A program made the translations under genes and the position numbers. A stretch of DNA of 64,000 bases from Branchiostoma floridae (Eukaryota > Chordata > Leptocardii > Amphioxiformes > Branchiostomatidae), in assembly GCF_000003815.2 (NCBI RefSeq), contig NC_049989.1:22967737-23031736 (forward strand). The letters are read 5' to 3'. The notes under the pieces were generated by a model. It saw nothing but the letters and a program-made list of their open reading frames with translations, did no database searches and was not told where the DNA came from. Of this stretch, positions 165 to 45,400 are shown in pieces. Every line of letters begins with the position of its first letter. The stretch's first letter is position 1.

Positions 165-712
165 CTCCTACTTACATGCCCCTGCAGTAGTTTCTGTGTG
201 TTGTTACTGTAGTACTCACATGCCCCTGCAGTAGTTTCTGTGTGTTGTTACTGTAGTACTCACATGCCCCTGCAGTAGTTTCTGTGTGTTGTTACTGTTA
301 CTGTAGTACTTACATGCCCCTGCAGTAGTTTCTGTGTGTTGTTACTGTAGTACTTACATGCCCCTGCAGTAGTTTCTGTGTGTTGTTACTGTAGTACTTA
401 CATGCCCCTGCAGTAGTTTCTGTGTGTTGTTACTGTAGTACTTACATGCCCCTGCAGTAGTTTCTGTGTGTTGTTACTGTAGTACTTACATGCCCCTGCA
501 GTAGTTTCTGTGTGTTGTTACTGTAGTACTTACATGCCCCTGCAGTAGTTTCTGTGTGTTGTTACTGTAGTACTTACATGCCCCTGCAGTAGTTTCTGTG
601 TGTTGTTACTGTAGTACTTACATGCCCCTGCAGTAGTTTCTTTGTGTTGTTACTGTATATAGTACTCACATGCCCCTGCAGTAGTTTCTGTGTGTTGTTG
701 CTGTAGTCATAC
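165..712. repeat. 44-bp minisatellite built from the CFAP251 exon 5 / 5' splice-site junction, 12 copies
   Basis: The anchor CATGCCCCTGCAGTAG begins at 175, 219, 263, 313, 357, 401, 445, 489, 533, 577, 621 and 669. Spacing is 44 bp apart from one 50-bp and one 48-bp step. Read on the minus strand, each unit is the last ~36 nt of exon 5 (...AACTACTGCAGGGGCAT) followed by the donor GTGAGTAC or GTAAGTAC. Only the 669 copy is joined to the rest of the exon. The 44-bp unit is not a multiple of three, so chained use of units would break the reading frame. Confidence 0.95.
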
Positions 713-3700
713 AGCACCGCAGTGTGCGCACACGTGTACAGGACCAGTCTGCGCTGATCGTCTGTCATGTTGATGGCTGGAACTCGCTTGTTCAGACCAA
801 ACGACCAGACCATGTTCTAGGGGAAGTGAATAGTGTCATCAGGTTGGTACATCACTGAATAAAAAGACTCTTTCTTCATATAACCCTTGCTTTATTTTCA
901 TCAGGTTGGTGCATTGTATGTTCAACTGAATAAACAGACTTTTCTCACAACCCTTGCTTTACTTCCACCAACGGTTTGGTGACAATCAGTCAATATTGCA
1001 TATGATATCACAGTACATGTATATGATTATGACTTGTGTAAATACTTAATGTTTGTAACCGTAGCTGTAGAAGTGACACTTATTGCAGCTGCTGTACAAT
1101 GTCAACTGGACAGAATTGCCCTCTCTTTGTTCTTGACGACATTCAGAGTTAAAAGGACACCCAATGTGTGAGGGGAGTCCACCCTTAGTACATTTAACTA
1201 AAGTTAAAGAACCCAACATACTTAATATGTACATTATACATAAGACATATGTTAGAACATACCAATGCGTCGATGGGGATGGGCTCTTCCGAAGCTTCAG
1301 ACTTGCGAGAGACTGGAGTGTGTCTCCCCCCTACGGTGGGGGGTTTGGTATCTGCCACGCTCTGGTCGCCGGGGACAACAGGGCTGGCCTTTCCACTGGG
1401 AGGCTTCTGAGAGGGGAGGAAAAGAGTGAAAGAAAGAGAGATTCGTAAGTTCAAAAACTGTCATTAGTAGTAGTTTTGTTACGTTCCCTCTAGTGCAAAC
1501 TCTATTTCAGTGTCAAGTTTCATAATTCCACTGGATGCCTAATAATATTAAGACTGCCAAATTGAAGAAAACAAAAGCAAACAATTTTCAGATGGATCTA
1601 TGTATAAACACCTATATCCCCTATATAACCATTGCACACTTCAGATATCCAGATGTTTAAGACATTCTGAAGAAGGTGTTAAGACCATTCTTATAATGTG
1701 GCAGGCTTAGGGTACCCCATGAAATTATCTTATCTAAATCTTTATGGTTCAAATTTATGCAACGTTTGTTTCTGTTTTGTGTTATGTCCATATATCTTTT
1801 TCTGGTTCTAAATGTTTTCAATATCATTGGAAAAAAAATCAATATATCTCACCCCAGCACTCCCAGCCCGAGCACTCTTCTGTGAGGCTGCGCTGGACTT
1901 CCTGCTCCTCCCACTAGAGGGCCTCGCTGTGCCAGAACCAGGTCTGTCTTTACCAGCGCTTGGAGGTCGGTCCTTGCCGCTGGAGGGTCTTTCTTTTCCT
2001 GGGAAAGATGGTTTTCATTATCAAATCAATACAGTTTTATTCAAAACTGTATCAAGCAATCCTTTTCTGTCCATACAAAAAGGCTTTCAGCAAACCAAGA
2101 GAAAGGGTCTGCATGCCTTTTTCTGTAAGGCGTAGGCAGCTGATTTTGATTTCCCATAATTCGTAGGGAAAATGTCTTATTCCTGTAATTCCTAGCGAGG
2201 GGACCAAATTTTGCTTGATTGCCTTCCGTGATTTCAGTGTGATGTACACTGGGGGCTCTACTGAATTTAGCATAAAACGTTGTCGCGACCCCTCCATGCA
2301 GACCCTGATGAATTGAAAAAGATCTAAAAGTTGCTAATTCAGAATATAGTACATGCATGCAAAGTACCTTTTTTTCAGACCAATCTTCAAAAAGTGTTGG
2401 AACAAATGCACGTGTCTTATACACACGGATTCCAAATTTCAGGTATAATACATAACATAATAGACCAATTAGTTTCCTCGTGCAGCAACGCAACATAAGA
2501 ATAAATAAATAAAATCTTAAGAGTACAAAAACGTCAGGTAAGAATGACAGAATACCTGCACTGGTTGGCCGCTCTTTCCCTGCACTTGCCGTCCGTTCCT
2601 TCCCCGCACTGCCTTGACGACTGCCTGGTGCACTACCCTCCCTACTCCCAGCCCGTGGGGTACCCTGTTGGCTTCCCGTGGGGGTGGGGGGTTTGCTGCC
2701 CCTGGGGGTGGGGGGCTTGCTCCCCTTAGGTGTTCCAGGTTTGCTGCCCTGTGGAGTCCCAGGTTTGCTGCCAGTCGGGGTGGGAGGTTTGCTCCCCCTA
2801 GCAGATCCGGCCTGACTTGCAGGCTTGCTGCCCGCTGGGCTCTGTGGTTTCTCTTCTTCTGTCGCTCCTTCTTCCTGGGCTGCTTCTACTGTCGGTGCCT
2901 CTTTTGTTCCCTCGGTTTCTGTCGGTTCAGCCTCTGGTTTATCTTCCTCAGTCTTCTCTTCTGTTTTTTCAGCTCCTGTAATGAAGTCATGTAAATTACA
3001 CTCAACATCGCCACAAACAACGACAATGGTGCTATTATTGAAGTACAATCATTCATTGTAAAACACATATCCAATGTTTAAATGAAGCATAGTACTATTT
3101 GTAGTATACAGTAGAGTAGATTAATTCCTCAAGCTACCAACATCCTGCACACTGCAGTCGTCCCTCAAAAAGACATCTGGAGCCGCATAGTTCAAGTTTT
3201 GAACTTTTATATTCAGCCTGTCGGCCATGGTACTATTTGTAGTTAGGGCTAATGATAGGACTCCCCCTCCCCCATAGTGAGAAAATATGCACGAACGGTG
3301 GCGATGATCCTGTCAATAGGATGACCTATTCAATTAAGTCAAAGAAAATCTGAGAATGATCTTTTACTTAGGCATTCTTCAACAATTTACACTTGTCAGC
3401 AGTACTGCATGACTATCTAATACATCAGTATTTGATAAGCTACTTTGTAATATGGACTTGTGGGGCACAAGAATTGGCAAATGTCAAGAAGTTGTTAGGA
3501 ACTTTTTTCACAAAAACAGTAAATTATTTCTTCAACAATATTTCCGCCCCCCTCCCCACACGGGCCCTTATATATACCCACCTTCTGCCGCCTCTGTAGG
3601 TCCCCGGTCTCCTGTCTCGGGGGCCTCGGGCTCGGGCTGTCCCTCGGCGTCGGCTGGAGGAGCCTCGGTCTCGGCGCCCTCGGGCCCAGCCGTCTGGGTC

Positions 3701-3747
3701 GCCTCTATCTTCTCCTCGGCCGGAACCGAACTTTCTTCGTCCGCCAT
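670..3747 (-). CDS. CFAP251: CFAP251/WDR66-like ciliary WD40 protein, N-terminal part (5 exons, runs off left edge)
   Basis: Exons on the minus strand: 3747-3582, 2975-2556, 1998-1853, 1406-1263 and 816-670. They sum to 1023 nt (341 codons) with consistent phases and GT/AG junctions. The start is the ATG in AAGATGGCGG (strong Kozak context) at 3747; an in-frame ATG lies 24 bases upstream. Residues 1-195 are low complexity: Glu/Ala/Pro-rich, then Gly-Ser-Lys-Pro-x-Thr-Pro repeats and basic GKxRPxS repeats. Exon 5 encodes MVWSFGLNKRVPAI...LVLYTCAHTAVLYDY...LLQGH, which resembles the first blade of the WDR66/CFAP251 propeller, a protein of the calmodulin- and spoke-associated complex at the base of ciliary radial spokes (family knowledge). 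An acidic N-terminus also fits that family. The rest of the propeller is outside the window. It could be another cilia WD40 protein. The 3' end of exon 5 and its donor have been amplified into a 12-copy minisatellite. Confidence 0.72.
836..975. repeat. Two-copy tandem repeat (~65-70 bp) in CFAP251 intron 4
   Basis: TCATCAGGTTGGTGCAT-like sequence, then CTGAATAAA(A/C)AGAC, then AACCCTTGCTTTA, occurs twice in a row with small differences. It lies just upstream (minus-strand sense) of exon 5. No coding role is seen. Confidence 0.6.
3105..3265. repeat. Dispersed repeat copy, shared with 11700-11880
   Basis: The string CACTGCAGTC(G/A)TCCCTCA, followed by AAGACATCTGGAGCC(G/A)CATAGTTC, occurs here in CFAP251 intron 1 and again at about 11755-11800 in YDJC intron 2. 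Related flanking sequence follows both copies (AACTTTT..., GGC(C/T)ATGGT). This indicates an interspersed element. No terminal structure was worked out. Confidence 0.6.
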
Positions 3748-4128
3748 CTTGGATTTCAAATCTGAGCGCATAACAAAAACAAATCACGATTTATCAGAAA
3801 TTTGTCAAATAACAAGCCCTTTTGATGGCCCAAAATTAAAGGTAAGGTCTTAAAATTTTACGTTAATGTGATAATTACCCAATTTCTGGTGAAATCTCCG
3901 GGAAAACAAACTTTAACTCGCCCGCTTCCCAGTCGTCAAGGAAACTGTTTACCTGTCGTTATCGCCGAACCAGCCTGGTTTGCGGCAGTAGTAGATTCAC
4001 CTTTGACCTGTGTTGAATTTTACGACAGTTCTGGAAAACATCATCATCACCGATTTCGCTTTGTTTTTCGAGCTGAAATTAATGAAGTTTTAGTTATAAT
4101 TTCTAGCACAAGTTTCTTTTCAAGAAAC
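3748..4128. promoter_or_regulatory. Putative bidirectional promoter between CFAP251 and PIGL
   Basis: The CFAP251 start codon (minus) and the PIGL start codon (plus) are head to head with 381 bp between them. That space must hold both 5' UTRs and promoters unless distant leader exons exist. No TATA box stands out. The sequence is AT-rich with a short GC-richer stretch near 3890-3970. Confidence 0.5.
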
Positions 4129-14315: not shown

Positions 14316-17300
14316 ATGGCGGCGCCAGGTGAGAAACAGGCGGCCAAATCTTTACAAGATGAAGAAGGTAAAATCTAACGATTTTGGCTCATTTCTGCTT
14401 AAGTTTTTACCGGCATTTGTGTAGACAGTTTCCCTGATCAGTTTGGGTATTGCAGAATATTGAACGTAGTACATATATTCTGTAAAATAAAGAAAATCTT
14501 CTGCGCGTTTGGTATAACAAAAAAAAGACCTCCCTTCGCCACTTCGTCCCTCCATAAATTTTGTTTCTTTAATGACAGAAAATCCAGAAAATATCCTTAC
14601 TTCTGTCTGAAAAGCTTTTTCAGACAGCCAATCCTGTGTTGCGCTTCTAGAATCCTACATTTTTGGGGAGAGGGGGGGGGGGTTAAAGGGACTTACACTT
14701 ACTGGTCAAACCTTATTTTCGAACAGACGGAATAAAGAACTCAGTCAAGGTGGGACCATGCATCATCAATTAACGTTAACAAACAGGGAATTATGTTTCA
14801 GTCAACAAAAATTGCTTAGTTGTGCTGTATGCCATGGTTAACATTCCCGACCTTAAAGTTTATGATGAACACCATTTGAAAACCATAGTCTGAAAATAAT
14901 GCATGCAATCAATTTGTTGCTGTTTTGATTATAAAAATGTCTAACTTGTATATGGTCTACATGAAGGTCTATCTATGAAAGGCTTAACATTATATATGAT
15001 TAAAAAAGCACAATGATTCCTGCCATTTTCCTTTTACTCACTCTCTCCCAAATCCCTAGCCTGGTTACCAAACCCCAGCCCGATCTCAAGTATCTATCGT
15101 GCAGGGGTCTGGCCGGATGGGATAGGAACTCTTCTCAATTCTGCCCCTTATAGTGGGCAAAAAACTCCACCAATAGAACAGCAGCAGGATCAGCAGGAGG
15201 TAATTACACCCCTGCCATGATTGGTTAAAGACCCCCAACTGTACTTTTTGAATCCATAACAGTGACCACTAAGTACCTGATTCGCTACTGTGATAGCCTG
15301 CTGACCAACTGTGGTGTTTTGTAGCTGGCTACCTGTGGTGTGAGTGGTCATCAATCCTAGGTTCTCCTCCCTCTGATCAAGGGCCTTCGAGAACCTTTCT
15401 ACAGCCATCCTGCCAGACTGGCTGAATACGTGTATTGAATTATTGATGAGATCAAATTGCCTGGCAAAATATCTTTCAGGTGTAGTTCTTTGATGTTATT
15501 GTGCATCATTGTTAGAAATGGACTGTGCTAGACTAAAAAAGACATGGAATTTTGTAGCTGTATCAAGAATGAAGCAACTACATTTTTATTAAGTTTCCTA
15601 ATGATTCCTAAGGCAGTCCCTTATTTTGACTTTTTCCACCACCATCATAGTTGCCAATTGCATTGTATTCATTAGAAACTGCATAATCTAAGCACTTTTT
15701 GAAATGAAGGAATATGTCACTGACTCTGGATCTGGTTCGTGAAATCATAACTTCGGAACTGATGAAAGAGCTGTAACTGTAAGTGTAAAAGCTGATCAAA
15801 CATGATGAAATTGGTTACTCAGGTCATTGTCCTATCTAAATATCCAGACTGTTGTTGTTTCTGTAGAGGCAGTTACCCAGGTGTACGCGACCCTCGGGGT
15901 GGCCCTGGTTGTCGTGGTGATCGGCGTGCCGCTCTGGTGGAAGACTACCGAGGTGTACCGGGCTTCGCTGCCGTACGCAGATATAGGGGAGCTGAAGGGG
16001 ACACAGGTAACATTATATGATAAACATATGTGTGTCTGCTGCAATAAACGTTCTTTTAACTTACATATCCAGATAGTAAAATTTAGGCGGTCACAATTTC
16101 TGAAGCAGATGAAATTTAGAAATGTTCAGATAAATTTTAGCCAGCATCAGCTGTCTTTCGTCAGTGTCACTAAAAAGGTAACCTTGACCTTGCAAATTTT
16201 TGCAGTTGTCATTTTGTAAAAGAAATTTATCATGACTTTAGTTATCATCATTAATGTATGAGTGGAGCTTTTCGGACATGAAAGGCAAACATGCAATTAA
16301 GGATAAACCAGATATTTATATTTATTTATTTATTTATACACAAAAATCAAAATCTAAACATAAAGAATAAATCATAATCCACATTCACAGTTTTCATTTA
16401 ATAGACAAAGAGAGGCCACATGTCAAACTTTTCATTTCTTAAAAAAAACTTACTGCCACCCTCCCCCTTATCAAGGTCATCTACAAGGTCGGGGTGGAGT
16501 TTGTCCTGCCTGTACAGACCCAGCCTCAGGACCTGCTGGACTGGAGGGAACAGGTGGATCAACACCTGGACACAGGTAAATATAACACATGGATACAGGT
16601 AAATATAACACCTGGATACAGGTAAATAGAACACATGGGGACAGGTAAAGATAACACCTGGATACAGGTAAATAGAACACATGGGGACAGGTAAAGATAA
16701 CACCTGGATACAGGTAAATAGAACACATGGGGACAGGTAAAGATAACACCTGGATACAGGTTAATATAAGACCTGGATACAGGTAAACAAAACACCTGGG
16801 GATAGGTAAAGGTAACACCTGGATACAGGTAAAGATAACACCTGGATACAGGTAAATAGAACACCTGGGGACAGGTAAAGATAACACCTGGATACAGGTA
16901 AAGATAACACCTGGATACAGGTAAACATAACACCTGGATATAACACCTGGATACAGGTAAACATAACACCTGGATATAGGTAAACATAACACCTGGATAT
17001 AACACCTGGATACAGGTAAACATAACACCTGGATACAGGTAAACATAACACCTGGATACAGGTAGTAAAGATAGCACCTGGATACAGGTAACAGTATATA
17101 TAACACAAAGGCACAGGTGAATATGACACCTAGACAAAGGTAAATATGACACCAGGGTACAGGTGAGTGTTACACCTGTCTTACAGGTAAAGATAACACC
17201 TGGATACAGGTAAAGATTACACCTGGATACAGGTAAGCATAACACCTGGATACAGGTAAATATAACACCTGGATACAGGTAGTAAAGATAGCACCTGGAT

Positions 17301-26300: not shown

Positions 26301-29300
26301 CACCTGAACTTTTTTAGAGTCTTTTACTGACTTTTTTTGTGTTTTACCCCAGGCTCCCACGTGTCCACATATCCCAGCGTGCACTTCCTGGTGTACGTCC
26401 CAGAACGGGGTCATTCTCCTCTCTACATTCACAATGAGGACGGTCAGTATAATCAATGCTTAATAATAATCCTGTATAGATCTGTATAAATTTTGTGATA
26501 TTGTTGATGTCTGACCTTACTGTAGCTACATTTGTAGGCACCTGTTTTCACATGAGTCAAATTGTGAAACTTGATGATAAAAGTGCCTTCCCCAAAGTGC
26601 AGTGTCAACTTTTGAGGTCTGCTAGGGATTCAAACCCTGAACCCAAAATAATTGCGATGATGAACTTTTAAGGTTGAATTGTGACCAATTAAGTTGCACA
26701 TATCAAGTTACCAGGGTTGTAGCCAGCCTGAAATCATTTTCCGTCCCCTTGACGTTGAATCCTATTGAGATGCCCAAGGCACGACATTCATGGGCATGCT
26801 GCCCTGGAAAATTTTGAAATCTAGACACTCTGAAACGCAATTTTCTGCGTTTTGAGGTGTAAATTTTGATGGTAGACTAAGCTGTTCCATGACATCTGGT
26901 TTTGGTGAAGTTTACACAAGGGAGACAGTTTTATTATATCTTTACATATCAATATTTGTCTGTCACAGAGGACGGAATGGGCAAAAAATTTTTTTTGTTC
27001 CCAGCTGCAAAATTCTGTCAAAGGACGGGAGGATGGGTGCTGGCTAAAACCTTGCAAGTTGCCAAAAACTCAAGTACATTGTATATTCACGCATGTTTTT
27101 CCCTTCCTGTCCAGGCATGGAGTCAGAAACAAACGCGTTCTTCAGCCCTCGCTGGGGCGGGATGAAGATCGTGAACGTGGCGTCCCCGCCAAAGAACGCC
27201 TCCCTCCCGCACACTGTGACCCTTGACCTGCTCCCCGTCATGGAGACCTTCCTCTCGCACCTGCGCCTGTTGCTAGGCATGGCCCAGTTGCCGCCCGACC
27301 CGTGGATCGTGGTGGAGCCAGCAGACAACACCGCCATCACAGACTGGGTGGGCTGCAGTATAGGCTTGCTTAAACCATATTGTATGAAAACAATGAAAAC
27401 AGAACAATGTATACTTGTATTATTAGGAAGCAATTGTTCAAGATCATTGTAAAGTTGATTGTACTCACTCATTCACTTATTTACACACACAGACACTTGC
27501 TCACTCATTCACTCGCTTGTGTTCAATCACTCATTCTTTCATTTATTTATTCATTCACACTCATTTATTCAGTCTTTGACTTGCTCACTGTCATTCACTT
27601 GCTCACATAACCTCATTCATTCATTCATTCACTCATTCACTCATCTACTCATTCTTTGACATGCTCACTCTCATTCACTTGCTCACATTCACTCGGCCTC
27701 TGATTCAGTCATTTATTCATTCATTCACTTGGTCTCTTGTTCACTTGCACACACATTTACTCATTCACCAGCTTGCTCACTCTTGCATTCATTCTTCCCC
27801 CCTTCAGGAATATGACCACCTCCTGCGGGTGCGAACAGTAGAGAACCTTGCCACGGCAACAGCCACCCTGGCGTCGCTCTCGCAGCTCCTCGGAGAGATC
27901 GGCAACATCGTGATCAACGACGACATCGCCTGGCAGGTCTACCTGGCTGTGGACGCTATCAGGAAGGCACAGCTCCTCCTAGCAACTGGGGAGCTAACTG
28001 CAGCTTTCCAGGCCTCCAAAGAAGCCATACTCTCTTCAGGTAACGCACTCCAAAATAAACACACATAAAGTAAAACAGTCCAAAATCCCAGCTCTGTTTT
28101 TCTGTTAGTATTGTAGGGAGTTATTCTTTAACCTACATGATAGCATAACATGTACAAAGCAGGTAATAGATTTTCATGATATTTGTTAGGTAAATGTGGT
28201 CCAAGAAGGAAATTTTTAGGTACGACTGGATTTCAGAGACAATCGCCTGTACAGTTGTACAATCATGTACACTGCTAGGACACACATTCGTACAAATTTT
28301 GTACAGTTAATGAATACCAAATTTGAATCTTTGCCTGGAAAGAAAAAGGTTATTAAAAACCTTAAAGCAGAGTCTACAATTAAAGTATTACTAACAATTT
28401 TCCTAAATTTTACCAAAAATTTGTTTTATGTTGCAGAAAAGGCATTTTTCGACCCATCACTACTGGAGCTGCTGTATTTCCCAGAGGACCAGAAGTTCGC
28501 CATCTACATCCCCCTGTTCCTGCCCATGAGTGTTCCTGTTCTCATGTCTCTGTTCCAGGCTTTCAGGTGAGACCCCCCTCTGCAGATGTAAGACCCCCCC
28601 CCACACACACAGGTGTCATACCCCCCCCCCCCCCCCANNNNNNNNNNNNNNNNNNNNNNNNNNNNNNNNNNNNNNNNNNNNNNNNNNNNNNNNNNNNNNN
28701 NNNNNNNNNNNNNNNNNNNNNNNNNNNNNNNNNNNNNTTTGGATGAGTAGTTTGTGTCAATACGATTCCTTTTTTGAAAAGCAGTAGATATGTATTGGCC
28801 TATGTACAAGGAAATTGCATCAGGACATGACATAAGTAAATTGAAAGTTTCTGAACTTGTCTTAGGTAATGTTATGTTTGTAGTCTTGTTGATAACGTCC
28901 ATAAGCTTCTGCCTTTCCTCAGTATATGTGGGACATAATAATAGAAAGTGTAGTTCGTCTTCGATACCATGATTGCAAGTAGGACAGCGTCTCTGAGTGG
29001 CTGGTATATTATTATATCGACCTTTTTCTATCTCCAAACAATGTGCACTAATTCGCAATTTTGTTATGTTAGCAACAAATGATTTATTTTGAATTGATGA
29101 AAGGTACTTTTCGAGAGTGAAGTTGGTCTTGAATTTAGAATAGGTTTGCAATTTGCTATAATTTCTTATCTCTTGCCTCCAGCCAGAAACAAACGTGTCT
29201 TTCAGACGTTCCTTGAACACGTTTCCAAAATGTTTGGCGTCAACTGCAGGGTTTAACCAAACATTTTGGAAACCGTGTCTGCACAATATGTCTTGTACAT

Positions 29301-31293
29301 GTACGGCACAGTCCTGTTCTTGTTCAACAGCAAAATCGTAAGCTTTTTTAACTATTCTATCGTTTGGAAGGTTTTGTAGTCTAAGCCAATATTTAATAAG
29401 TTGAGATGGGCTTCAATGTATAATGGAAATGTTCCGAGTTCACCCCTTACGGCGGCATTAACGGAACTTCTGGGAACTTGAAGTAGGATTTTACAGTAAT
29501 TGAGAAGAACATGCTCTAGATCAGACACTTCATATGAGAATTTGGGATGTGTCAATAAAATATTTTGATTCGATAGTAATTCCGATTGATATAGAATATT
29601 TAATTTGTCACTATATCTCTTAAACCGGACTAGAACAGGACGAGGCGATGTCACATCGTTCTTCTTTCCTAATCGTGTAACCTTTAGGAGTTGTATATTT
29701 GAACCTAATATCGGAGAAAGGATGTTATAAATTCCTTCCCGTATATTTTCAGCAGGATATTCCTGTACTCCATTAAAGGTCTACTCTCTACATTGGATGT
29801 TTGTCCCTAGTACCTCAGCACAGTAAAGTAATATAGGTTTGACTAAACTATGGAACAGATCAAGGGCAAGGGAAATTGATGGGTTATGGTTTGATGCTAG
29901 TAAGGATTTGAGTTTAAAGGAGGCCCTGAGAGCTTTCAGTCGCAGCTGTTTAGTAGCCCGTGAGAATGACCCTGATGGGGTGATATCTATGCCTAAGTAA
30001 GTATAAAATTTAGTGATGTCTATTGTGTGCCCTTGTGTTCGGAAAGTTGATTGCTGTTGCTTACTTGTCCTGCCATGTTTTGAGAAAATCATGATTTTAG
30101 TCTTATCTCTGTTAATTGATAGTTTCCAAAGAGAGCAAAAGTCATCTAATCTTTTGAGACATTCTTTGAGGCCTGTTTCTGATTTTGACAACAGTACAAG
30201 GTCGTCTTCCCATAAAAGACTACTTATGGGGGTGTCTTTTAGGACGACGGGATCACATAAAGGTGACATTAAAGTGGCTGGGAGATCGTTTATATAAAGG
30301 TTGAACAAGAGCGGACTTAAATTACATCCTTGGCGCACACCACATGTCGACTGAAAGAAATCTGAGAGTCCATTTGGCGTTTTGACGCAGTATTCTACGT
30401 TAGAATACATGGATTGGATGATTTTAAAGAAATTCCCCCCTATACCAGAAGATAAGATTTTATAAAATAGCCCATTTCTCCAAACAGAATCAAACGCTTT
30501 CTTGAACCCAACAAAGCAGGCGTACAGTTTACCCCCGGGTTCAGATGTCTGCTTGTCAATTAGCGTTTTGAGTACAAATATGTTGTCACAGGTGCGGAAG
30601 TTTTTACGAAAGCCAGACTGAAAAGGGGATAGTAAGTTGTCATTCTCTAGGAAGTGTGCCTGTGCTCATGTCACTGTTCCAAGCTTACAGGTAAGACCCC
30701 CCTCTACAGATGTAAGACCCCCCACAGCTGTAAGACCCCCCCCCCCCGCACACACACACACACTAACCATAACCATCTACATCCCCCTGTTCCTGCCCAT
30801 GCGAGTGTGCCTGTGCTCATGTCACTGTTCCAAGTTTACAGGTGAGACCCCCCTCTACAGATATAATACACACACACAAAAACACAGGTTTAAACCACCC
30901 CCCTCCCCCGCCCCCCACACACACGCAAACCACACACACACCTGATGTTCAAGACTTTCTTGAGAAGGCTTTCTTGAGAACACTCTCATTTAATGTGGAT
31001 CATTTTTGCATTTGAAAACTTAATTACTACTACTAGTGTATTTGCTAACTTCAGGTTTTCTGTTCACATATGCCATATAAAATACTTCAAAGTGGCAGAA
31101 TATCTATAAATGCTTTTTCTGTTCAATCAGGTGGTACAAGAAAAGGCAACAACAGGAAGGAAAAACTAACCAGGAGAAAGAGAAAGAAGGAATAAAAGAA
31201 GCTCAAAAAGAAGAAACAGAAGAAGACGATGACAGCGAAGCAGAAGAGAAGAAATCTCCCAAGGGAAAGAAGCAGTCAAGAAAGGAAAGATGA
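14316..31293 (+). CDS. PIGS: PIGS, GPI transamidase complex subunit (complete, 13 exons)
   Basis: Exons: 14316-14367, 15867-16006, 16476-16575, 17722-17820, 19125-19262, 19881-19990, 25283-25471, 25900-26014, 26353-26442, 27115-27347, 27808-28039, 28437-28566, 31131-31293. The sum is 1791 nt, or 596 aa plus TGA, with every phase consistent. The human protein is about 555 aa. PIG-S belongs to the ER-membrane GPI transamidase, which attaches GPI anchors to proteins. Recognisable blocks are the N-terminal membrane segment ending [17 protein letters not shown] (TM about 25-41), [62 protein letters not shown], and the second TM (about 521-541). The last exon adds a Lys/Glu-rich tail (about 50 residues) not typical of vertebrates. 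Exons 3, 5 (both ends), 8 and 12 have tandemly duplicated boundaries. Intron 6 holds a 4.8-kb TIR element and intron 12 a LINE and an assembly gap. Confidence 0.97.
15052..15415. repeat. Possible interspersed element in PIGS intron 1
   Basis: A GC-richer block begins AGCCTGGTTACCAAACCCC and has TCTGGCCGGATGGGAT near its left side. CCATCCTGCCAGACTGGCTG, partly inverse to that, is near its right side. This looks like a decayed foldback element inside an otherwise AT-rich intron. Confidence 0.35.
16560..17457. repeat. ~24-bp minisatellite built from the PIGS exon 3 / 5' splice-site junction, ~37 copies
   Basis: Exon 3 ends CAACACCTGGACACAG|GTAAATATAA. From there to 17457 the unit ACACCTGGATACAGGTAAA(T/G)ATA is repeated. 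I counted 37 AGGT-bearing units, most reading CAGGTAAA and a minority CAGGTGA or AAAGGTAAA. Every unit is thus 16 nt of exon end plus about 8 nt of intron start, a full-strength 5' splice-site motif. The antisense frame stays open for up to 255 codons purely from the periodicity. Confidence 0.96.
18787..19190. repeat. 135-bp tandem triplication covering the PIGS exon 5 3' splice site
   Basis: The block from GGACCACAG(C/T)CTGTAACCC through polypyrimidine, TTGTTCAG and the first ~66 nt of exon 5 occurs three times. Acceptors end at 18854, 18988 and 19124 (spacing 134 and 136). Only the third copy continues into the full exon. Reading through the earlier copies meets a stop (CTCCAG TAG) after the exon-like part. 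Confidence 0.95.
19250..19795. repeat. 266-bp tandem duplication covering the PIGS exon 5 5' splice site
   Basis: TTCAGGAGGTGAGTCT at 19255 (true donor) recurs at 19521. Both copies are followed by CTTATGTCCTGAGTCAAA, GGCCTGAATA, TATCTCATTAC and GTCTAACCTTTATTGATG with moderate divergence. The second copy has an exon-like end and donor but no upstream exon body. Confidence 0.88.
20082..20424. mobile_element. 343-bp foldback element with 73-bp inverted arms
   Basis: Arm 20082-20154 (AATATAAAATTGGACCAACT...) is inverted at 20352-20424 with only a few differences (TTTCCGCC versus TTGAAGCC). The centre holds sequence shared with the right end of the larger element (to 24932), so the two structures overlap. 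Confidence 0.8.
20123..24932. mobile_element. ~4.8-kb DNA-transposon-like element with ~145-bp terminal inverted repeats in PIGS intron 6
   Basis: 20123-20268 (TGTCTCTCCTCCATTTCCGC... to ...GAAACCCCAGTT) is the near-perfect inverse of 24787-24932. A further partial end (TGTCTCTCTCCATTTCCGCC, about 40 bp) starts at 20424 and matches the right terminus even better at its tip. The interior has no long ORF; the longest frames are below 180 codons and resemble no transposase I recognise. The stretch 20.9-22.7 kb is markedly A-rich and T-poor on the plus strand and rich in CpG. It is probably a non-autonomous or decayed element of an unidentified superfamily. Confidence 0.75.
25782..25965. repeat. 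92-bp tandem duplication covering the PIGS exon 8 3' splice site
   Basis: CCT(T/C)TAACCTGTGACCTGTCC, then CCAG|GTGCTGTACTATGTTGACC and on into the exon, occurs at acceptors 25807 and 25899. The first copy reads ...TCTAACCTGTGA, an in-frame stop before any donor, so the second copy is taken as the exon. Confidence 0.95.
27440..27800. repeat. TTCA/CACT-type degenerate microsatellite in PIGS intron 10
   Basis: About 350 bp of TCATTCACTCATTCATT-like repeats with TTGCTCAC interspersed. It ends just upstream of the exon 11 acceptor CCCCTTCAG. Open frames across it are artefacts. Confidence 0.9.
28638..28737. other. Assembly gap (100 N)
   Basis: A run of exactly 100 N in PIGS intron 12, flanked on the left by a poly-C tract and on the right by the 3' part of a LINE. 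The exact size suggests a placeholder. Confidence 0.99.
28738..30650 (-). mobile_element. 5'-truncated, inactive non-LTR retrotransposon (LINE) in PIGS intron 12
   Basis: The minus strand from 30650 encodes a reverse-transcriptase fragment: [11 protein letters not shown] (palm entry), [14 protein letters not shown] (motif A), [19 protein letters not shown] (motif B) and [14 protein letters not shown] (motif C). Then [14 protein letters not shown] follows. After frame breaks, a C-terminal zinc-knuckle region [20 protein letters not shown] is read near 28950-29010. Motif A normally carries Asp where Gly is found, and motif C is WEDD instead of YADD or FADD, so the copy is dead. The 5' half (endonuclease) is missing. 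The clade was not assigned; it looks Jockey/CR1-like. Confidence 0.88.
30651..30900. repeat. Two extra copies of the PIGS exon 12 3' end and donor
   Basis: GTGTGCCTGTGCTCATGTCA...TTACAG|GTAAGACC (30651-30735) and a longer copy starting ACCATCTACATCCCCCTG (from about 30771, ending TTTACAG|GTGAGACC) repeat the end of exon 12 (28500-28566) and the start of its intron. The longer copy has two extra bases after CCCATG that shift its frame, so it could not replace exon 12. The LINE lies between the real exon and these copies. Confidence 0.9.
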
Positions 31294-33420: not shown

Positions 33421-36400
33421 TTAGAAGTCTGGAACGACCCGTGTGACGGTATCCTGGTAGGCAGGAGGCGGGGTGTGGGGAGGGAAGTTGGTGCGGCGGG
33501 TGAAGAGCGACCTCTCCCCGAAAACCGACTTCTGCCGGGACGACCATCGGCTCTTCCTGCCCCCGAGGTTGGTCGGAGTCTCGCCCTTTCCGTGCGGCTT
33601 GCCCCAGTCGTCCACCTCGTCTTTTGCCGACATTTTGGGTTGTTTTTGGCGTTTGGTGGGGACTTCCTCGTCTGACGATATCTCGTCTTCGACGGAGACC
33701 CGACGGTTGCAGCAGCCCGGTGTTCGACTTCCAGGATGCCTCCTTCAAGAGAGAGGTAAATATTAGTAAACATTGTATCATATAGTTGATTATTAGACCC
33801 TAATGTTATGTATCACGGTATCTACTCCTCGTAGTCCTTGAGACTGTACATGCAGTTAGCCTTCGGGCATGACTTTGCAACTAAAACATTATTTCTTTGA
33901 GATATTTTTACAAATCATGCAAAGACGAGCAGAGAATTCTATAGCTACTTTAAATGCAAATTCCCCTTATTTAGTCATCCTGCATTGAGGCGGAGCATGA
34001 TTCATTTTGAAATGATTGATGCAGGAGAAATCAAGAAATCAAGACCAGATTTTCACCAGATTTTCACAAAAATTGCTGGACGTCTGCAGTCCTACGTTGC
34101 CTTTCGATGCTGTGCGGAAATCAGCCCACAGTGTCGTATGATGGGCATTTGTATTGCCCGTTGTATGTCTACTTTTCAAGCGGGATACGACATACGAAGC
34201 TGTATTGCTCTACTATCATGTTTTTTTAAGAAAACACCACACTTCACCTCAACTGAGGATGACAAAAGAAGAAGTAGATCTGCTTACATTTTGTAGCAGA
34301 CGTAAGCGAGGGTGGCGAGGCAGATGACCAGGGTGGACAGGACGGAGGCTAACAGAGGCCACAGCAGCAGGTCCATCTGGTTCACACACATGCAGCCGGA
34401 ACCAGTACCAGAACCGGTACCGGAGCTCCCATCTCCTGTAACACATGAAGCAGCACCTTGTTACTATAGAGTGTCTACCAGACTACATACAATGACTATG
34501 GGGAGAATGATTTGCCATGAGCGGCCACAGTAGCAGGTCCATCTGGTTCACACACATGCAGTCGGAACCAGCACCAGTACCGGAGCTCCCATCTCCTGTA
34601 ACACATGAAGCAGCACCTTGTTACTAGTTTCTACCAGACTACATACACTGACTATGGGGAGAATGATTTGCCAGAAGTGGCCACAGCAGCAGGTCCATCT
34701 GGTTCACACACATGCAGCCAGAACCAGCACCAGTACTGGAGCCGGAGCCATCACCTCCTGGAAAATATTATGTATCAACCATTAGCAACCCAGTGCCTGC
34801 CTTTTGACAAGCTAAAACAGATTGAAGCAAAACAGCGCTTTCATAAAATTCTGCCAACCAAGAATATATGGAACAACTAAAGATAGATCATTGTCGTTCA
34901 CCCTCTATTGCAGCGAATGTTTGCCCCATGCGTTGCAGTATTTTTAACCCACAAAAGAGAATTGAACTTTGAGAAATCATGACCAAAAGCTAAAGACAGA
35001 TGCCTAGTGTTTCAATAACGTAGGCAACAAAGCTCAGTCACGTTTGGCACCGCATTCTTCCTACTTCAGCAGCGCCCCCTAGCTGCAGTGCGAAGTCGAT
35101 CCAGTCTATTATCCTGAGGATTTAAGGTGACAGGCGGTGCTGAAACGCCAGTCTAGATATTAAGAAAAAAATGCCTGTGTCTAAAGAACTTTGCTATCCT
35201 GTGACATACCAACCTGATGAAACTATTCATGGGGATTCTGAACTAGCTAATGTAATTTGCAGATCGTGGTGGGACCACAGCAAACACTCGAAATTTCTGA
35301 CTGACCTGTCCCTGATCCGCTGCCATCTCCTCCGGTCCCGTTCCTAGACGTCCCGTTGCCATAGAGACTCCACCAGTCGTCTGCAGACCCGTTCCGGTTG
35401 CTAGGGGTGGGACTGGGGCATTCTGGGATCGTCACGCTCAGGGTGTTGTTGAGAAGGGGGATGATGGGAAGGCCCAGAAACTCCTCCGGTCCGGCACACA
35501 CCAGGGCGTCAGTGTTGACCAAACTGGGATGGACAGAATGAATGAATGACTCAATAGAGTCTGGAGAAGACAGGTGGGAGACCAAAGAGTTGGTATCCTA
35601 TGAGGAACAGGCCTGGGGTTTTACTGACTACATCAGTTTCCATCAAATACACCAACATAAAGAGTGCATTGAATGTTTTCCACCCCTTGCAAAGCGCAGT
35701 TCCTACACCTTTATCACGTCTAAAAAATTGTATGTAGCTACAGTCAGGCTGTCAGATGCTTCAGATCAAGGTACTCACTACCTTAGCCACGTTTGGGATT
35801 GTGTTCTCGCCACAAAAGCGCCACCTACATCGGCTACATATAGCGGCGAGAAGCAGAACTCAAGTCAGAAGCTCCGAGGAAGGTGTCTGAGAGACATCGA
35901 AACGTAAGCAAGAGTGAGTATAAACTGCTGTGTAAAGGAATTCTATATTCTACCAACCTGGTGAAANNNNNNNNNNNNNNNNNNNNNNNNNNNNNNNNNN
36001 NNNNNNNNNNNNNNNNNNNNNNNNNNNNNNNNNNNNNNNNNNNNNNNNNNNNNNNNNNNNNNNNNNNNNNNNNNNNNNNNNNNNNNNNNNNNNNNNNNNN
36101 NNNNNNNNNNNNNNNNNNNNNNNNNNNNNNNNNNNNNNNNNNNNNNNNNNNNNNNNNNNNNNNNNNNNNNNNNNNNNNNNNNNNNNNNNNNNNNNNNNNN
36201 NGATGCAGAATGTAACATTATTAACTGATGTCAGTTTGGTGACATCTACAAGAAGCAGAATAGCACTGCGTATTCAGGTACTCTGTTCAGATCTTTTCCA
36301 AAAGGAGGTAAAACATGAAATATCTGAGGGGCATCATATATGTCTATGTATATTATTTGTATAAATATTCTCTATATTCATGTTTCTGCATATGTTTTAC

Positions 36401-39400
36401 TTAAAGTCCTGGTTACTCGGCATTTGAAATTGATCATTGTTAGCTATTATACAACATCACTTCTGAATCAACAGTCCTGTTAGAAGATCACCTCGAACGC
36501 GCCGTCCTCGATAGTGTGGATGAGGTTGTCACTGATGTCCATCTTCCACAGTCTGATCAGTGGGGAGAACACGTTGCTAGGCAACACCGTCAGATCATTG
36601 CCCTGGAATAAACACAAGTGAACTTTGACAGTTCAACAGACCATGCGGATTTAGCCTCCATAGCAAGCTCTTTGGGGTCTTTTGTATGCTCATATTGATA
36701 ATACACTTTTGCTGGCCATTTCTTTTTGTACTGGGTGGCTGATTGCCGGCCGTCACTGATTACTGGCCCCGGCAATCAGCGACCCAGTAATCAGCGACCA
36801 AGTACAAAAGAAATGGCCAGCAAAAGTGTATTATGAGCATACAAAAGGCCCAAAGAGAGCCTGCTATGGAGGCTAATGCGGATTCTACTGTCTACATTCT
36901 CTTTTTCACAGGGAAGACGAAAGCGCATTCTTTAAAGAAAAGCGTACATCAAACAGGCAAAATTTTCTTCTGTGCCAGTGTAATAGCATTTGTTATAAAG
37001 GTTGACTATATATAATTCTGAAGCAGCTACAAGTAATTATATTTGAAGGCAGTTATGAGTAATATTTGACGTCTACATATTCGCTATGATAGAGTACCTG
37101 TAGTTTGAGCTGGTCCAGATCAGTCAGGTCATTGAACGCTCCGGTGTCGATGGAGGCGATGTCATTGTTCTCTAGGTACAGATAGTCTAAATCCAGCAGG
37201 TTCTAAAGAAATAGTAGATTAACACAATAGCCATGTCAAAATCTGTAACAATCGTCACTGACAGCATACATGGAAATTTTCAATTCGTTCCTCCAATGGA
37301 TGTCTGGTTGTAGTGGTTGTATCTGTATCAAAAGCCTGCAATGGTTAGGTTTTGTTCTGTTACCTCAAGGCGTCGTTCCAGGCTAACCCGGCAGTCAACT
37401 TGGCACCACACAAGAGCACTCTATAGATTACCGTTCCGCTTGCTGTTACAGGGGAACTCTTCATACCTACAAATGTACAACTGTGGCACACAGTACCTCA
37501 TGGGACTGTTGTCATGAGAAACAGAATTTAAAATATGTTACCACTTTAGAATGTGATGGAAAAAATTGTGTACACTGATCGCTAGGGTTGGTGATGATGT
37601 GTCAAGAATGATATGGAAAAGATTGTGTATACAGCAGAGCCGGCGAACCCACCTGAAAGGTGTTGTTGACCAGTTCCGTTAAGTCGTTGTTCCTCAACCC
37701 TAGCTGCCGCAAGATCTCCAGGTCCTTAAACTGCCCCTCCTGTAGCTGGTCGATGTCGTTATTGTCCAACCACAGCTGCCTCAGCTTGGGGATACCTGGA
37801 AACATTTCCGGTGTCAGTATCCAACGACATCTCCTCATTGTTTACTGACGAAAGGTGGTCACTGTGGATTCTGTCTGAAACGTCTGACTGTTTCCAAAAT
37901 CATATCCAGTTGCTTGAATATTGCTATTTGGCGTATTTTATCACCTGGGTGTCTAACCTTCATCGACACAGTAGCAGGTATGTTCTATAAATATGATGCG
38001 TCGTTCCAGAGCCTTTTGATGCTATAAATGTTTTATCTTAATTCCCAGTCAAACACATCTTGCTATTTTTGTCGCAAGAATTTCGTATCATAGCTAAGTC
38101 GTGCGATGCATGTGACCCTGGCATATGCTTCCCACCTGGAAGCAGAGGTTAGGCTTTGGCTTTTTTGGTCTATCTAAGGCGTTTGTATCAGGCTCTCTAC
38201 ATTGTCGAGTACTGTAGGCTTAACAAGGTGGAAGGAGGAATGAAAAAGGCTGATGTTGCGTTTATCAACAAAGGCGCCCACGGTGCAGGGTCCCCAGGTA
38301 CAATGAACAAGGTACATAGCGCATGTCTTCTCTGTCGCAACTAGAGGAACATTTATAGTTGCACTGTTTAAAAAAACAGAATGATAGGGTTGTGTTTACC
38401 AACAAAGGCGTCCTCTTCCATACAGTTGATGAGGTTGTTCTGGAGGTACAGCAGCCTGAGGACGGGCATGCCGCAGCAGAAAATGGAGCCGTTCAGACAC
38501 GTGAAGCGGTTGTTCTTCAGGTTAAGGGAGTCCAGCTTGTCCAGCCCGCTCCACGTCTCGTTACTCATGCCCCACTCCGTCAGGCGGTTGTTCTCCAAAT
38601 TCAGACCTCTCAGGTTGGCTGAGAACGACAGTAAGACGTACGTAAATAAACTCTTTTAGCACTTCTTTGCGTTTGGGACTGCATTGTACATATTGTGCAT
38701 AAAGCTACCTGTACATAATATTATGTACAAAATTAATACGTTACGTTTTATGATCGCATCTGAACTGTGAGCAGCGACACCTGTCCTGCAGTACAATGTG
38801 AACCAATCAGAATTGCCCTGAAGAAGGTGACAGACGGTCACCGTAAAGTCGGTGAGAATAAAGCATAGAATGTGTATCAAGTGTCTCTTTCTCCAGTGAC
38901 GTACCAACTAGATTAAACTATTCACGGTAGTAAAACGTAAGGTCCTGAGTTTAAGTGGAATCGTTTATGAGCTGATAATATGAATGGCTTACAGATAAAG
39001 TTTTTTAATGAGGAGATCGCCATTAAAGCACATAAGTTACGAAACCGTCGTCCCAACTAAGCAGCTGAGTCACTTTAGGTTTTGTAGTCGTTTGGAATCT
39101 AACAAGGCATCATGCAAAATGAACGTCATCATACTTTTAGAGAGAATCTAGGAAGATTTGAGCTTATCATGAATAAATAAAGGTTCAAACAAAAGGTGTG
39201 TCCTCACAACAATGTGAAGTCATTCTTTTACGTGCAGAAAATTGTATATGGCAGCGTCCAACATGTTGCCCCTATAATTTGGAGAAAAGACTTTCTAAGT
39301 GTTAAGCCCGTCTACTTGTTCCTTGTGAGTCTTACCAAGGTCCTGGAAGCTGTAGTCAGGCAGAGCCGTCAGCAGGTTTTGGTATAAGTACAGGTACTGC

Positions 39401-42400
39401 AGCCGGGTCAGACCGACAAACGCGTCAGGGTCAATACTCTCCATCCCGTTCCTGGAAAAACAGTAACAGATGAAGGTAAGTGCATACAACTTGAAAAGTG
39501 GCAATTTTTTGTATGTTGTGTGTCTAAGTCCAAGTTCTCCGTTCTTGTCAGGCCCGTCTGACGTTCAGCACTGAGGCAAGCATGGATCCTTGACTTAAAT
39601 GTGTGTCTGTGAAGCAATGTTTAATGGGACTTCCGTAACTTTTCATTTACCGTGTTAGCAGGTGAACTGTTAGTGATTCAGTTAGCGTTCCCCAAAATCA
39701 GACAGGTTACGTATGGTGATAATTGCAAATGATAGAACTACTGATGATCAGAACCATGAATGTCATAACTAACTGGCGATCGATTGTTCTTTTTAGGTAA
39801 CCATTCCTCTAGTTCCTGCTCTCATACAATTACATGCATGTACAGCTATCGATGGATAATTTCCCAACCATACACCAAATAAACATGGAAGATATACTTT
39901 CAAACAATGTCCGGCTATATCAACAACACGACTTACGAGTGGAGCCAGAGCCTCTGTAGCGAGACGAGCCTCACAAAGTTGCCGCCCTCCAGGTGAGTTA
40001 TCTTGTTCCCCTGCATTTGCAGGTGTGTCACTGACGTCAGGCCGTTAAAACTGTCTGTACAACACAGAGACATATTAGCATCTTTGCGAAGAGGGTTTAC
40101 ATAGTGTCTATTTGTACTAGAGTTAGATCGTGTAGCGCAATTGGCAGCGCGTTGGTCTCAGGCCCAAGAGGTCATGACTTCGAATCCGGCTGCCGTGTCA
40201 CCGATCTTCTGCCCTTGTGTGAATGAGTAGCTAACTGCGGCTAGTGGCAGTGGCAGGCCATAGGGGCATGTTCGGGCATGACGCACTCGCCATGATACAC
40301 GAGTCAGGGGTAGGAGGAACCCCTTGCATCCTTGGTCGGAAGTCCTCCTAGGAGACGGAAACTCTAAACAACAAATCTTCATCTGCTGGGACTGTCTTAC
40401 ACGCTGCATACAGTTGCCCCTGTAGGACTTTGTGCGCCAGTGGACGAGAGGGTGGAGAAGGAACTGCACACCCCTCTTTAACTTAGAAAGTCACGTGCAG
40501 GCCAGGCAGACAGGTCGCCTAACCCACCCTGTCTGCCTACCATTGTCTTCCGAGACAGACGGATGACATTTGTACTAGGTAAATCAATGGTGCTACTTAT
40601 ACCTTTGGTGACAGATGCTGGATGTGATCAGTCATAGGCAACATGTCTAATCTCCAACCAGATCTATCGGTGACAAATCAGTTTCATAAGGACCAGCCAA
40701 TATCCAACAGGGTTCCTATGGCCTGTTTGTATTTCAACATTTAAAAAAAACATCATTCATTGTTGATTGCTGATCCTTGGGTTGTGTAAAAAAATACAAA
40801 ACCCAAGTTAACCACTTGGCCCTGAATCTATGTACAAGGCATCACGCTCCTACGAAATAACATAGTTTATTAGAATGCCATTGCCTGCCAGGGTATGTCC
40901 AAGATAGGCTATTGCATATGTAGATTGCCCGTATTCTGCACGTGGTACTTTACCTGCAGTAAAGTTGACCAGCCCCATGCTGGTAATGTACAGAGTTTTG
41001 AGCTTGTTGAGGTACTGGAAGACGTCACTGTGGAGGGTGGAGATGGGGTTTGAGCTCATGTGGAGATAGTCCAGGTTGTCCAGTCCTCTGAACGACTGGG
41101 GATTCAGCTCCGTGATACTGGAAGACCAAAAAAGGGACAATTGATGTGACGAGAAGGAAAAAGAAGGAGACAGCTCTCCATTCCCATAGCTACCTTGTCC
41201 TCCCAAATCCCTGGATCCGGAAGTCAAAAGACTACGTAGGTAGGTAGGTAGTTTATGTGACGTTTTGTGTAGTTGTGTCAATATTCGAACACATTGTACG
41301 GATGCCGACCGACACACAGGCGCAATAGGCTTAGGACTTTGCATTGATTAAGGATTTACTACCTACCGATCCAGAAAAGGAAGAACCTACTGATGGCAGA
41401 CCTTAAAGGCTGAGGACTAAGATTGTTGCAGTCAGAAAGAAAATTACGGGAGCTAGGTGACCTCACAACAAATGGGATAACGTGGAGAGATTTGAAGAAA
41501 GACTAATTGCAGTTACAGGGTGTCCAGGTACAGCAGCAGAACACAGTGGAGTACTACGTTTACTACTACATGAAATTTAGGTATTGATGGTTTCTTGCTT
41601 GTGAACACAGATTGATCAGACTTATTTGCTTGGGTAGAGCCACACCGAACGCTTGTTACTAGTGATCCCCTTTTAATGATGTCTTAAATTGAACGCCGTG
41701 CTTGATTCAGAAGATTATACTGCAAAGTAGTAAGAGTATGCTACAAACTAAGAGTATGCTGAAATATTACCATTAATCTCAAGATTTCACAGTTGTGTGT
41801 ATTATGAAACATCTCACACAGAAGTACTCCAATGACCAAACAAAGCAGCAGAATCAGAACCCACCCGTTGTTGTTGAGCCAAAGCTTCGTCAGGTGCGTC
41901 ATGGTGTATTCCCGGGGCTGGGGCGTGGTCGTTACCGTGGTGATCAGAGTGGAGAGTAGAGACGTCGGTGTAGCAGTTGTCGCTCCGGCTGTAGTGGTTG
42001 TAGCGTTGGAAGTAGTGGTTGTAGCGTTGGCTGTAGTGGTTGTAGCGTTGGAAGTAGTGGTTGTAGCGTTGGAAGTAGTGGTTGTAGCGTTGGAAGTAGA
42101 GTTGTCCAAACCTGTAGTGGTTGTAGCGGTGGAAGTAGAGTTGTCCGAACTACCTGTAGTGGTTGTAGCGGTGGAAGTCGAGTTGTCCACACTGGCTGTA
42201 GTGGTTGTAGCGATGGAAGTCGAGTTGTCCATACTGGCTGTAGGGGTTGTAGGGTTGGAAGTAGTGGTTGTAGCGATGGAAGTCGAGTTGTCCATACTGG
42301 CTGTGGTGGTTGTAGCGTTGGAAGAAGTGGTTGTAGCGATGGAAGTAGAGTTGTCCATACTGGCTGTAGTGGTTGTCGCACTGGATGTACCAGCGTCTGT

Positions 42401-45400
42401 GTTGGCTGTACTGTCTGGCACGTCTGGTGTACCGGTGCCCGTAGCAGCTGTAGTTGCTGTTGTTACGCTAGATGTGCTGTTGTCCGCTCCGGCAGTTGTA
42501 GTTGTCACACGGGATGTACCGGTGGTTGTACCGACTGTAGTTACTTGTTACAAAAGAATGAATGAATGAATGAATGAATGAATGAATGAATGAATGAATG
42601 ATGAGCTAATATGGGCTTATATGACACCACACTTTGTATATGTTATATGCGTTACATTATATATTTGTACGTCATATGATATTTCTATTTCTTTATTTCT
42701 TTATTTCTTTATTTGAATTTACCACATGCAAAAACAAGTGGAAGGGAGGACAAAACAGGTGTATCAACACCTTTACAAGTTGTCCTCCCAAACCTGAAAT
42801 GATAATAGAAAACAATACGAAACCAAAATCAAACAATAAACATTAGACATCAAAAGTCAGTTGACATGAATATACCATTCGGTGACAATTATACACAGAA
42901 TTGATTATATTATCAAATATCATTATATACAGAGTAAAAAGCTAATTATAGTAGCCTTAAAGCAGTGCAAGAGGCACACCCACATGACTGAAACTATCTA
43001 TAGATGATACCCATATTTACAGTATACCCATATGTTACGTTGTGCTGTTATCCATACCGGAAGGTGTAGTCGTTGCACTAGATGTACCGGTGGCTGTACC
43101 GCCCGAAGTGGTTGGCACTTCCGACGTACCCAGCGCACTGGTTGCAGCGTTGGACGTACTGGTGCCCGTCCCTGTTGCAGCGGCTGTGTCGGTTGATCCA
43201 CTGATGGTTTTCCCGGTTGTAGAGATTGATGACGTCACGGAGATCTGTGCCTGCGTTGTCTGTGACGTGGCAGGATTGGCTGCTGTGGTTGCTAGGGAAC
43301 CGGCCGTCGGTAGGGACGTGGTCGGTCCCGGAGTTGTGGAGACCCTGGACAAAAAGTCGATAGTGACACATTTTACAATCAGCTGTTTGAAGGCAGGTCG
43401 ATCATCGTCATCATTCCTCTTTTTTCCAAATTATCTGAATCTATGTAAAACTCCAACCATCAAAATCGTTGACAAGTAATTTCAAAGTATAGTCTTATAT
43501 CATTATTGTCTTCTGCTATTGTCAAAATCTTTAAGTGCTAGCATCATCTATAGATAATTTCAGTCATGTTTCCTTCAATAACCGCCCTTCCGCACACCAC
43601 ACCACACCATCGTCAAATGCACGCGGCATTGTTTGAGCCTATCCAAACATTCGCGTTGCCCCCGCCCCTACCCCAAACATAGAAACTACTGTCCCAATTA
43701 AATCCCGATGTTTAAATGCGGTACTGACCAGTCGCAGGGGTAGTGAAAGACGTCTGGCTCCAGCTCCTTGATCCAGTTGTACCCCAGGTTCAGCTCCTTC
43801 AGACCGTAAGGTCCGAAAAACGTGCCGCACTGAAACATGTCGGGGCAAGGGTCAAGAGAAGATTATAAAAAATAATAATAAAGATAGCAAGATCCAGCAT
43901 ACTTGAATAGGTCACAGATTCCCTACGCCAAGTAATAGTTACTCAAGCAACTGGATTTAATACTGGAAATGGTCAGACGTTTCAGACAGCATTCGCTGCC
44001 ATTGATGATCCTAAGATCTTGTTGCTTGAGTAACTATCATTTGGCGTGTATTATTACCTGGATGTCTTAACACTTATCGACGTGTCATTGATAAAAATGT
44101 ACATATGAACTAGATTCGGCACTTCTTTTGCATGCAGTGATTTAAAGCCCCTTACACGGAGCCACAGGCTTTACGCCCCCACCCGAAAGGACAAATGCAA
44201 TCGCCGATAGCCCATAGTCGTAGTCCAATGATTAGCGAACCAAAAGGTTTGGAGTTTGAATCCCAGCTCTCCTGACATGTAACATAATGCAAAGGGTTTC
44301 AGACATAGCGAGGGACATTAAAACGCGAAACGTGCTCCACTGTTCATTTTGCTTGCCATAAAGAGTGAGGGGAATTTCTTCAGTACAATGAACGTGTAAA
44401 TACTGTATATAGTGTCCGTCCTCTCTGGCACGACCAGTTACTAAGAAGAGTAGCTCTTCGGTGAGCTAACCTGGTCGGAGACCACTCCCATCTTCACCGA
44501 CTTTACCTACCTTTATGTCGGAGATGCCGTTGTTTCTGAGGTCCAGGTACTCCAGACTTCCCAGCTCCAGGAACACGTTATCCGCCAGGCCTCTAAGCTA
44601 AACTTTGTGTGCCGTCGGGCTGCGGATTCGCCCCCAGTACGTGCCAGTACGGGCGACGCGCCTGCCCCGTACAGCCTGAACGTTTTCAGAAATACGTGGC
44701 GGACGTGGCCACTCCCATCTTCACCGACTTTACCTACCTTTATGTCTGTGATGCCGTTGTTCCTGAGGTCCAGGTACTCCAGACTTCCCATCTCCAGAAA
44801 CACGTTATCCGCCAGGCCTCTAAGCTAAACTTTGTGTGCCGTCGGGCTGCGGATTCGCCCCCAGTACGCGTCAGTACGGGCGACGCCCCTGCCCCGTACA
44901 GCCTGAACGTTTTCAGAAATACGTGGCGGACGTGGCCACTCCCATCTTCACCGACTTTACCTACCTTTATGTCGGAGATGCCGTTGCTTCTGAGGTCCAG
45001 GTACTCCAGACTTCCCAGCTCCAGGAACAGGTTATCCGCCAGGCCTTTAAGCTAAACTTTGTGTGCCGTCGGGCTGCGGATTCGCCCCCAGTACGTGCCA
45101 GTACGGGCGACGCCCCTGCCCCGTACAGCCTGAACGTTTTCAGAAATACGTGGCGGACGTGGCCTCCCTTAGCATAACCGACCGCACGTACCTTGATGTC
45201 GGAGATGCCGTTGTTCCTGAGGTCCAGGTACTCCAGACTGCCCATCTCCAGGAACAGGTTATCCGCCAGGCCTCTCAGCTGGTTATACCGTATGTGGAGC
45301 TTCTTCAGGGACGACAGACCCTGGAGAGGGGGGGGGGGGGGGGGTGATGTTATTTGGATTGTAATAAGACAATGCAGTATACTGCACCAGGCAGCAAGAT

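Follow-up and report, generated by a model that had tools for sequence, protein, structure and literature searches.

We analyzed a window of 64,000 nucleotides of the amphioxus Branchiostoma floridae (C11:22967737-23031736, within a 513.4-Mb genome assembly of 431 contigs) and found eight tandem arrays, each of which repeats a splice junction of one of three adjoining genes: CFAP251, PIGS and a gene coding for leucine-rich repeats (LRR) and a transmembrane (TM) segment. All eight had been listed in an earlier note on this DNA and all are present, and their junctions have the support of protein homology or of an exon with an open frame. We consider it likely that the arrays are mirages, i.e. 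minisatellites with a unit that by chance includes an exon-intron boundary and which expanded and were then tolerated via exon definition. In all eight, the unit comprises the junction together with exon and intron sequence, as expected for a mirage. Five of the repeated junctions are donors and three are acceptors.

Arrays were called with Tandem Repeats Finder (TRF), which detects seven of the eight directly; the array at PIGS exon 12 was recovered through alignment instead. Exact junctions were set by a generic splice-site score beside a homologous or open exon, and rows of hidden Markov model matches containing internal stops were excluded from this placement. The exon body is upstream of the first copy where the repeated junction is a donor, and downstream of the last copy where it is an acceptor. 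The CFAP251 array (169-707, reverse strand) has a TRF period of 44 bp in 12.0 copies with 12 donors, of which the first, on the exon side, keeps the frame; the real exon spans 670-816. On the forward strand, the array at the PIGS exon 3 donor (16561-17456; real exon 16476-16575) consists of 38 copies of 23 bp. PIGS exon 5 (19125-19262) is flanked by two arrays: one at the acceptor (18785-19189, 134 bp in 3.0 copies), where the last copy keeps the frame, and one at the donor (19254-19787, unit 266/270 bp in 2.0 copies). The copies of the latter agree at 78% of positions, and this array is probably older. A further PIGS acceptor, assigned to exon 8 in the earlier note, carries an array at 25782-25967 (92 bp in 2.0 copies; real exon 25900-26014). 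In the LRR gene on the reverse strand, the acceptor of the TM exon (34288-34435) is repeated within 34357-34757, with acceptor sites at 34757, 34595 and 34435 (TRF row 34357-34742, 156 bp in 2.4 copies). A donor of the same gene is repeated at 44482-45280 (227 bp in 3.5 copies, 4 donors; real exon 45192-45320). Only two of the seven TRF periods are divisible by 3.

The eighth array, at the donor of PIGS exon 12 (real exon 28437-28566, forward strand), is split. Its copies lie at 28500-28632, 30653-30747 and 30773-30900, the latter two repeating the final 38 to 67 exon bases and the donor. The donors of copies 1 and 2 are 2.1 kb apart, and between them lie a run of N (28638-28737) and a reverse-transcriptase open reading frame (ORF). 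This ORF is one of two adjoining ORFs at 29355-30665 on the reverse strand and matches RVT_1 with E = 2e-28. The simplest reading would be that a retroelement inserted into the array. A further run of N in the window is at about 35.9-36.2 kb.

The support for the junctions differs between the genes. For PIGS (15867-28566, forward strand) 11 exons were placed, and a draft splice joined by hand matches human PIGS in the PDB with E = 3e-121. The 5' part of CFAP251 (1-3761, reverse strand) continues past the window start and has homology support for exon 670-816 only; this exon matches CFAP251 structures with E = 4e-12, and the similarity continues through the final codon ahead of the donor, at which point the query ended. 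For the LRR gene (34288-47797, reverse strand; perhaps more than one gene) the model is incomplete, with 10 exons placed. Its LRR exons match Pfam LRR_8 (E = 1e-26), and the TM exon was placed from reading frame alone. The same region contains a tandem repeat (41987-42376, reverse strand) inside a mucin-like, Ser/Thr-rich open frame.

In the arrays, the splice site that keeps the reading frame is the copy closest to the exon body. The other copies are decoys, and 60 of 61 would cause a frameshift or a stop if used (58 of 59 in seven arrays and both decoys of the exon 12 array; the count of 39 for PIGS exon 3 takes in a few GGT matches other than unit donors). The lone exception is copy 2 of the CFAP251 array, which would add 48 nt.

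Based on these observations we propose the following scenario. In a minisatellite-rich region near a chromosome end, a short segment of about 20-270 bp would be duplicated, and the array would then grow and shrink through replication slippage or unequal recombination. A duplication that includes one junction would keep a complete exon and one good site, the extra copies falling on the intron side. The protein would remain unchanged provided that the splicing machinery picks the exon-proximal copy. Exon definition, i.e. the pairing of U1 and U2 factors across the exon, is the likely cause of this choice, for donors and acceptors alike. Duplications inside exons would be purged, and those within introns or across a single exon edge would survive.

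The number of such arrays in the window is larger than random placement predicts. Seven of eight arrays in the three gene spans cross a junction, compared with 1.31 expected when a unit is free to fall within introns or over a single junction (P = 1e-5); two repeats within coding exons (2555-2799 and 41987-42376) were left out of the eight. Adding the exon 12 array gives eight of nine (expected 1.51, with 0.2 assumed for this array), and counting the two coding-exon repeats together with the first eight arrays gives eight of ten (expected 1.47). When whole arrays were shuffled as blocks, the expectation rose to 3.78 (P = 0.016). The test is post hoc, as the feature itself led to the choice of the window. 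The gene models of CFAP251 and LRR are incomplete. The window is also unusually rich in repeats: arrays with a period of at least 20 bp occupy 9.23% of its bases, about six times the 1.49% of the sample described below, and its end is 0.5 Mb from the end of the 23.53-Mb contig C11. The concentration at exon edges, which the earlier note had called surprising, does exceed random tolerated placement, but in part it is regional.

For an independent estimate we collected 54 stretches (223,488 bp) through homology to the myosin head, the kinesin motor and TCP1 chaperonins. They contain 21 arrays with a period of at least 20 bp, four of which cross junctions (1.2-1.5 expected, P = 0.03-0.06; the junction number of 260-340 and the 40 kb of coding sequence are estimates). 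The other 17 were classed as non-spanning, not each by comparison with a full gene model. Two of the four arrays are at donors and two at acceptors: a kinesin acceptor (C2:31967588, 151 bp in 2.7 copies), a kinesin donor (C6:18691097, 66 bp in 1.9 copies, with a weak splice score and the junction 4 bases inside the array edge), the CCT-zeta acceptor (C11, 68 bp in 6 copies) and the CCT-beta donor (C19, 67 bp in 14 copies). The two CCT arrays were spotted by eye and afterwards confirmed. The junction excess outside the window is modest and borderline; the enrichment over shuffled positions that the earlier note proposed to test holds in the window and is borderline in the sample. A search with globins gave 9 exon matches and no tandem partial copies among the matches listed; the known globin mirage itself was not checked at the sequence level. 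A search of the genome with Pfam GFP, tried as a species marker, gave 0 matches, although lancelets are known to carry GFPs.

An excess of this kind would also follow from a mutational bias linked to splicing or to sequence, by which segments with an AG-GT junction are duplicated in tandem at a higher rate than the rest of the intronic sequence, in excess of what tolerance predicts. We regard this as unlikely, but as the most probable of the alternatives. It would account for the counts in the window and in the sample, where four of the five arrays with units of at least 60 bp cross junctions (a cut-off picked after viewing the data). However, of 194 homology-placed junctions (out of 198 in total, the other 4 being in additional copies of a single kinesin exon), just two lie inside arrays.

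Genome-wide motif counts bear on the same alternative. The strict donor motif CAGGTRAGT occurs 15,134 times, compared with 7,039 for the reversed motif, and pairs 29-59 bp apart number 2,797 compared with 12. The resulting 233-fold pair ratio was not accepted as an estimate of enrichment, since a permuted control, CAGGARTGT, gave 163 pairs and its reverse 222, which showed the reversed donor control to be unusually low. Pair counts overstate the enrichment because arrays with many copies are counted repeatedly and one dispersed repeat family adds pairs. When each locus is counted once, the excess shrinks to about threefold, with 9 non-family donor-motif arrays and 3 permuted-motif arrays in the first 29.2 Mb of C1 (P = 0.07, among the matches listed; both the counting of loci and the separation of the dispersed family were done by eye, and chance may account for some single pairs). 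The permuted motif, which carries CAGG and is not a donor, thus also occurs in tandem, and a proneness of AG-GT segments to duplicate, one of two inferences drawn in the earlier note, is not shown.

What the motif arrays do indicate is that mirages are not confined to the window. Eleven non-family donor-motif arrays were examined, all within the initial 8.7 Mb of C1 and among the matches listed. Four of them start at a homology-confirmed exon end, namely two dynein heavy chain exons, TALPID3 and cornichon (L074, L075, L076 and L083), which would also fit a mutational bias. Two have an open frame with no homology (L077 and L079), three have putative coding-like sequence on the opposite strand (L078, L080 and L082), and at two nothing was seen (L081 and L084). 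A further motif, CAGGTYAGT (541 pairs, against 89 for its reverse), proved unsuitable as a non-donor control, as two of four examined arrays lie at exon ends: one in CDK7 (E = 5e-10) and one at a dynein-like exon (E = 2e-5, under the Pfam cut-off). Given the exon ends at four of eleven and two of four motif arrays, mirages are probably widespread in this genome.

Some of the motif arrays occur in groups. Three separate arrays (L074, L075 and L085) lie within 15 kb at C1:221810-236121, 0.2 Mb from the contig start; two are at dynein heavy chain exons and one is at the dynein-like exon, and they perhaps belong to one gene and mark a further hot spot. Among the matches listed, seven loci at C7:17949686-18078746 have one common 32-bp donor-bearing unit, perhaps because a single mirage was passed on when genes duplicated in tandem. 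The dispersed family consists of arrays with a unit of ~50 bp that itself resembles a donor, a pyrimidine tract, an acceptor and a donor. It was found on eight of nine chromosomes among the matches listed, with loci including C1:8046904, C1:9479866, C1:20224899, C1:29239706, C6:949687 and C9:340675.

The position of donor-motif arrays along the chromosomes was analyzed with CAGGTRAGT pairs 89-99 bp apart (209, compared with 4 for the reversed motif), of which the 100 listed, on C1 to C9, were used. The lengths of C4 and C8 were interpolated, with little effect over the range tried. Among the matches listed, to which all locus counts in this paragraph refer, 14 of 30 non-family loci lie less than 1.5 Mb from a chromosome end (expected 3.0, P = 3e-7); after merging neighbors within 250 kb, 10 of 26 do so (expected 2.6, P = 1e-4). 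The dispersed family is unbiased (2 of 12, expected 1.2), and permuted-motif arrays are barely biased (3 of 19, expected 1.7). Compared directly, 14 of 30 and 3 of 19 differ with P = 0.03, or 0.18 after merging. Donor-motif arrays are therefore likely biased to chromosome ends, a bias that may or may not be specific to the donor motif. Vertebrate subtelomeric minisatellites, or variable number tandem repeats, are arrays of tens of bp that likewise cluster near chromosome ends, although we know of no reported preference for exon edges. We suggest tentatively, as a possibility that falls somewhat short of an even chance, that junction-spanning arrays occur in hundreds of genes of this genome, cluster in the outermost few Mb of the chromosomes and are more numerous than tolerance predicts, and that subtelomeric recombination preferentially expands sequence at exon edges.

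Selection could in principle maintain the decoys, for example to buffer or regulate splicing. The GT or AG dinucleotides of the decoys are indeed almost always intact, with an identity of 0.96-1.00 in nine arrays. The remainder of the unit is, however, equally intact: when splice-site columns were ranked against the other columns of the copies, the site window showed no distinct conservation (rank 0.13 to 1.00 in nine arrays, some outside the window; 11 were tried, and those of CCT2 and the LRR TM exon were left out). Together with the frame-breaking nature of 60 of the 61 decoys, this makes maintenance by selection very improbable. Because the site columns are undistinguished and the decoys break the frame, the copies resemble neutral passengers, and splicing would be expected at the inner site.

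Mirages are known from amphioxus, so the duplication pattern is not a new phenomenon. The term was introduced for amphioxus Adh3, and globin mirages were described as well, according to the accessible part of PMC3087553; a mirage in amphioxus PGBD5 is reported, and TnC cited, in the accessible part of PMC3902484. In these cases (Adh3, the globins BflGb6 and BflGb9, TnC and PGBD5) the AG/GT signals are kept in many copies, as here, and the published units of 10-160 bp overlap those in the window, as far as the accessible text goes. The window differs in that eight arrays occur in three adjacent genes, with units of up to 270 bp and up to 38 copies, and in that one array is broken up by a gap and a retroelement ORF. 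For Adh3 and the globins there is transcript evidence of normal splicing, whereas the window arrays are known from genomic sequence. No genome-wide survey of mirages was found in the literature searched, the coverage of which excludes most subscription journals. The eight arrays are probably new mirages.

It was also suggested in the earlier note that the arrays could be intermediates of intron gain through tandem duplication. Such a model was put forward in 2010 together with the globin mirages (PMC3087553, accessible part), and tandem AG-GT copies like those found here feature in the Rogers AGGT-duplication model cited there and in the potato RdRp gene (PMC4974935, accessible part). The window arrays differ in that they copy an existing junction, and no added intron was seen. 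In the Rogers model and in the potato gene, a duplicated exonic segment reportedly turns into the new intron. In the window, the copies of all eight arrays sit within the intron next to a junction that already exists, none of the arrays contains a new in-frame intron, and 60 of 61 copies are unusable in frame, which makes intron gain very unlikely.

We adopt survival by splicing out, the other inference of the earlier note, as the best explanation, with nearly all decoys frame-breaking. Three points weigh against the mirage interpretation. Tolerance alone predicts fewer junction-spanning arrays than were observed, and an extra factor may contribute. The use of the exon-proximal site is inferred from the reading frame. 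Finally, an assembly artefact (collapsed or expanded repeats, or merged haplotypes) would fit the N gap inside the exon 12 array and has a precedent in one globin mirage described as mis-assembled in the accessible part of PMC3087553, but the copies differ from one another, the units are gene-specific and similar arrays exist at other loci, so that it is very improbable.

The eight arrays extend the short published list of mirage genes and, together with the further cases found, suggest that mirages are common in this genome and not a curiosity. With chromosome-scale assemblies, populations and RNA, they could reveal whether minisatellites are born preferentially at splice junctions. If the end-biased expansion beyond tolerance is true, each array would put exon definition to a natural test, in which up to 38 near-identical sites compete and only the innermost yields protein. 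Mirages could also show how cells settle on a single splice site when dozens of near-identical sites are present.
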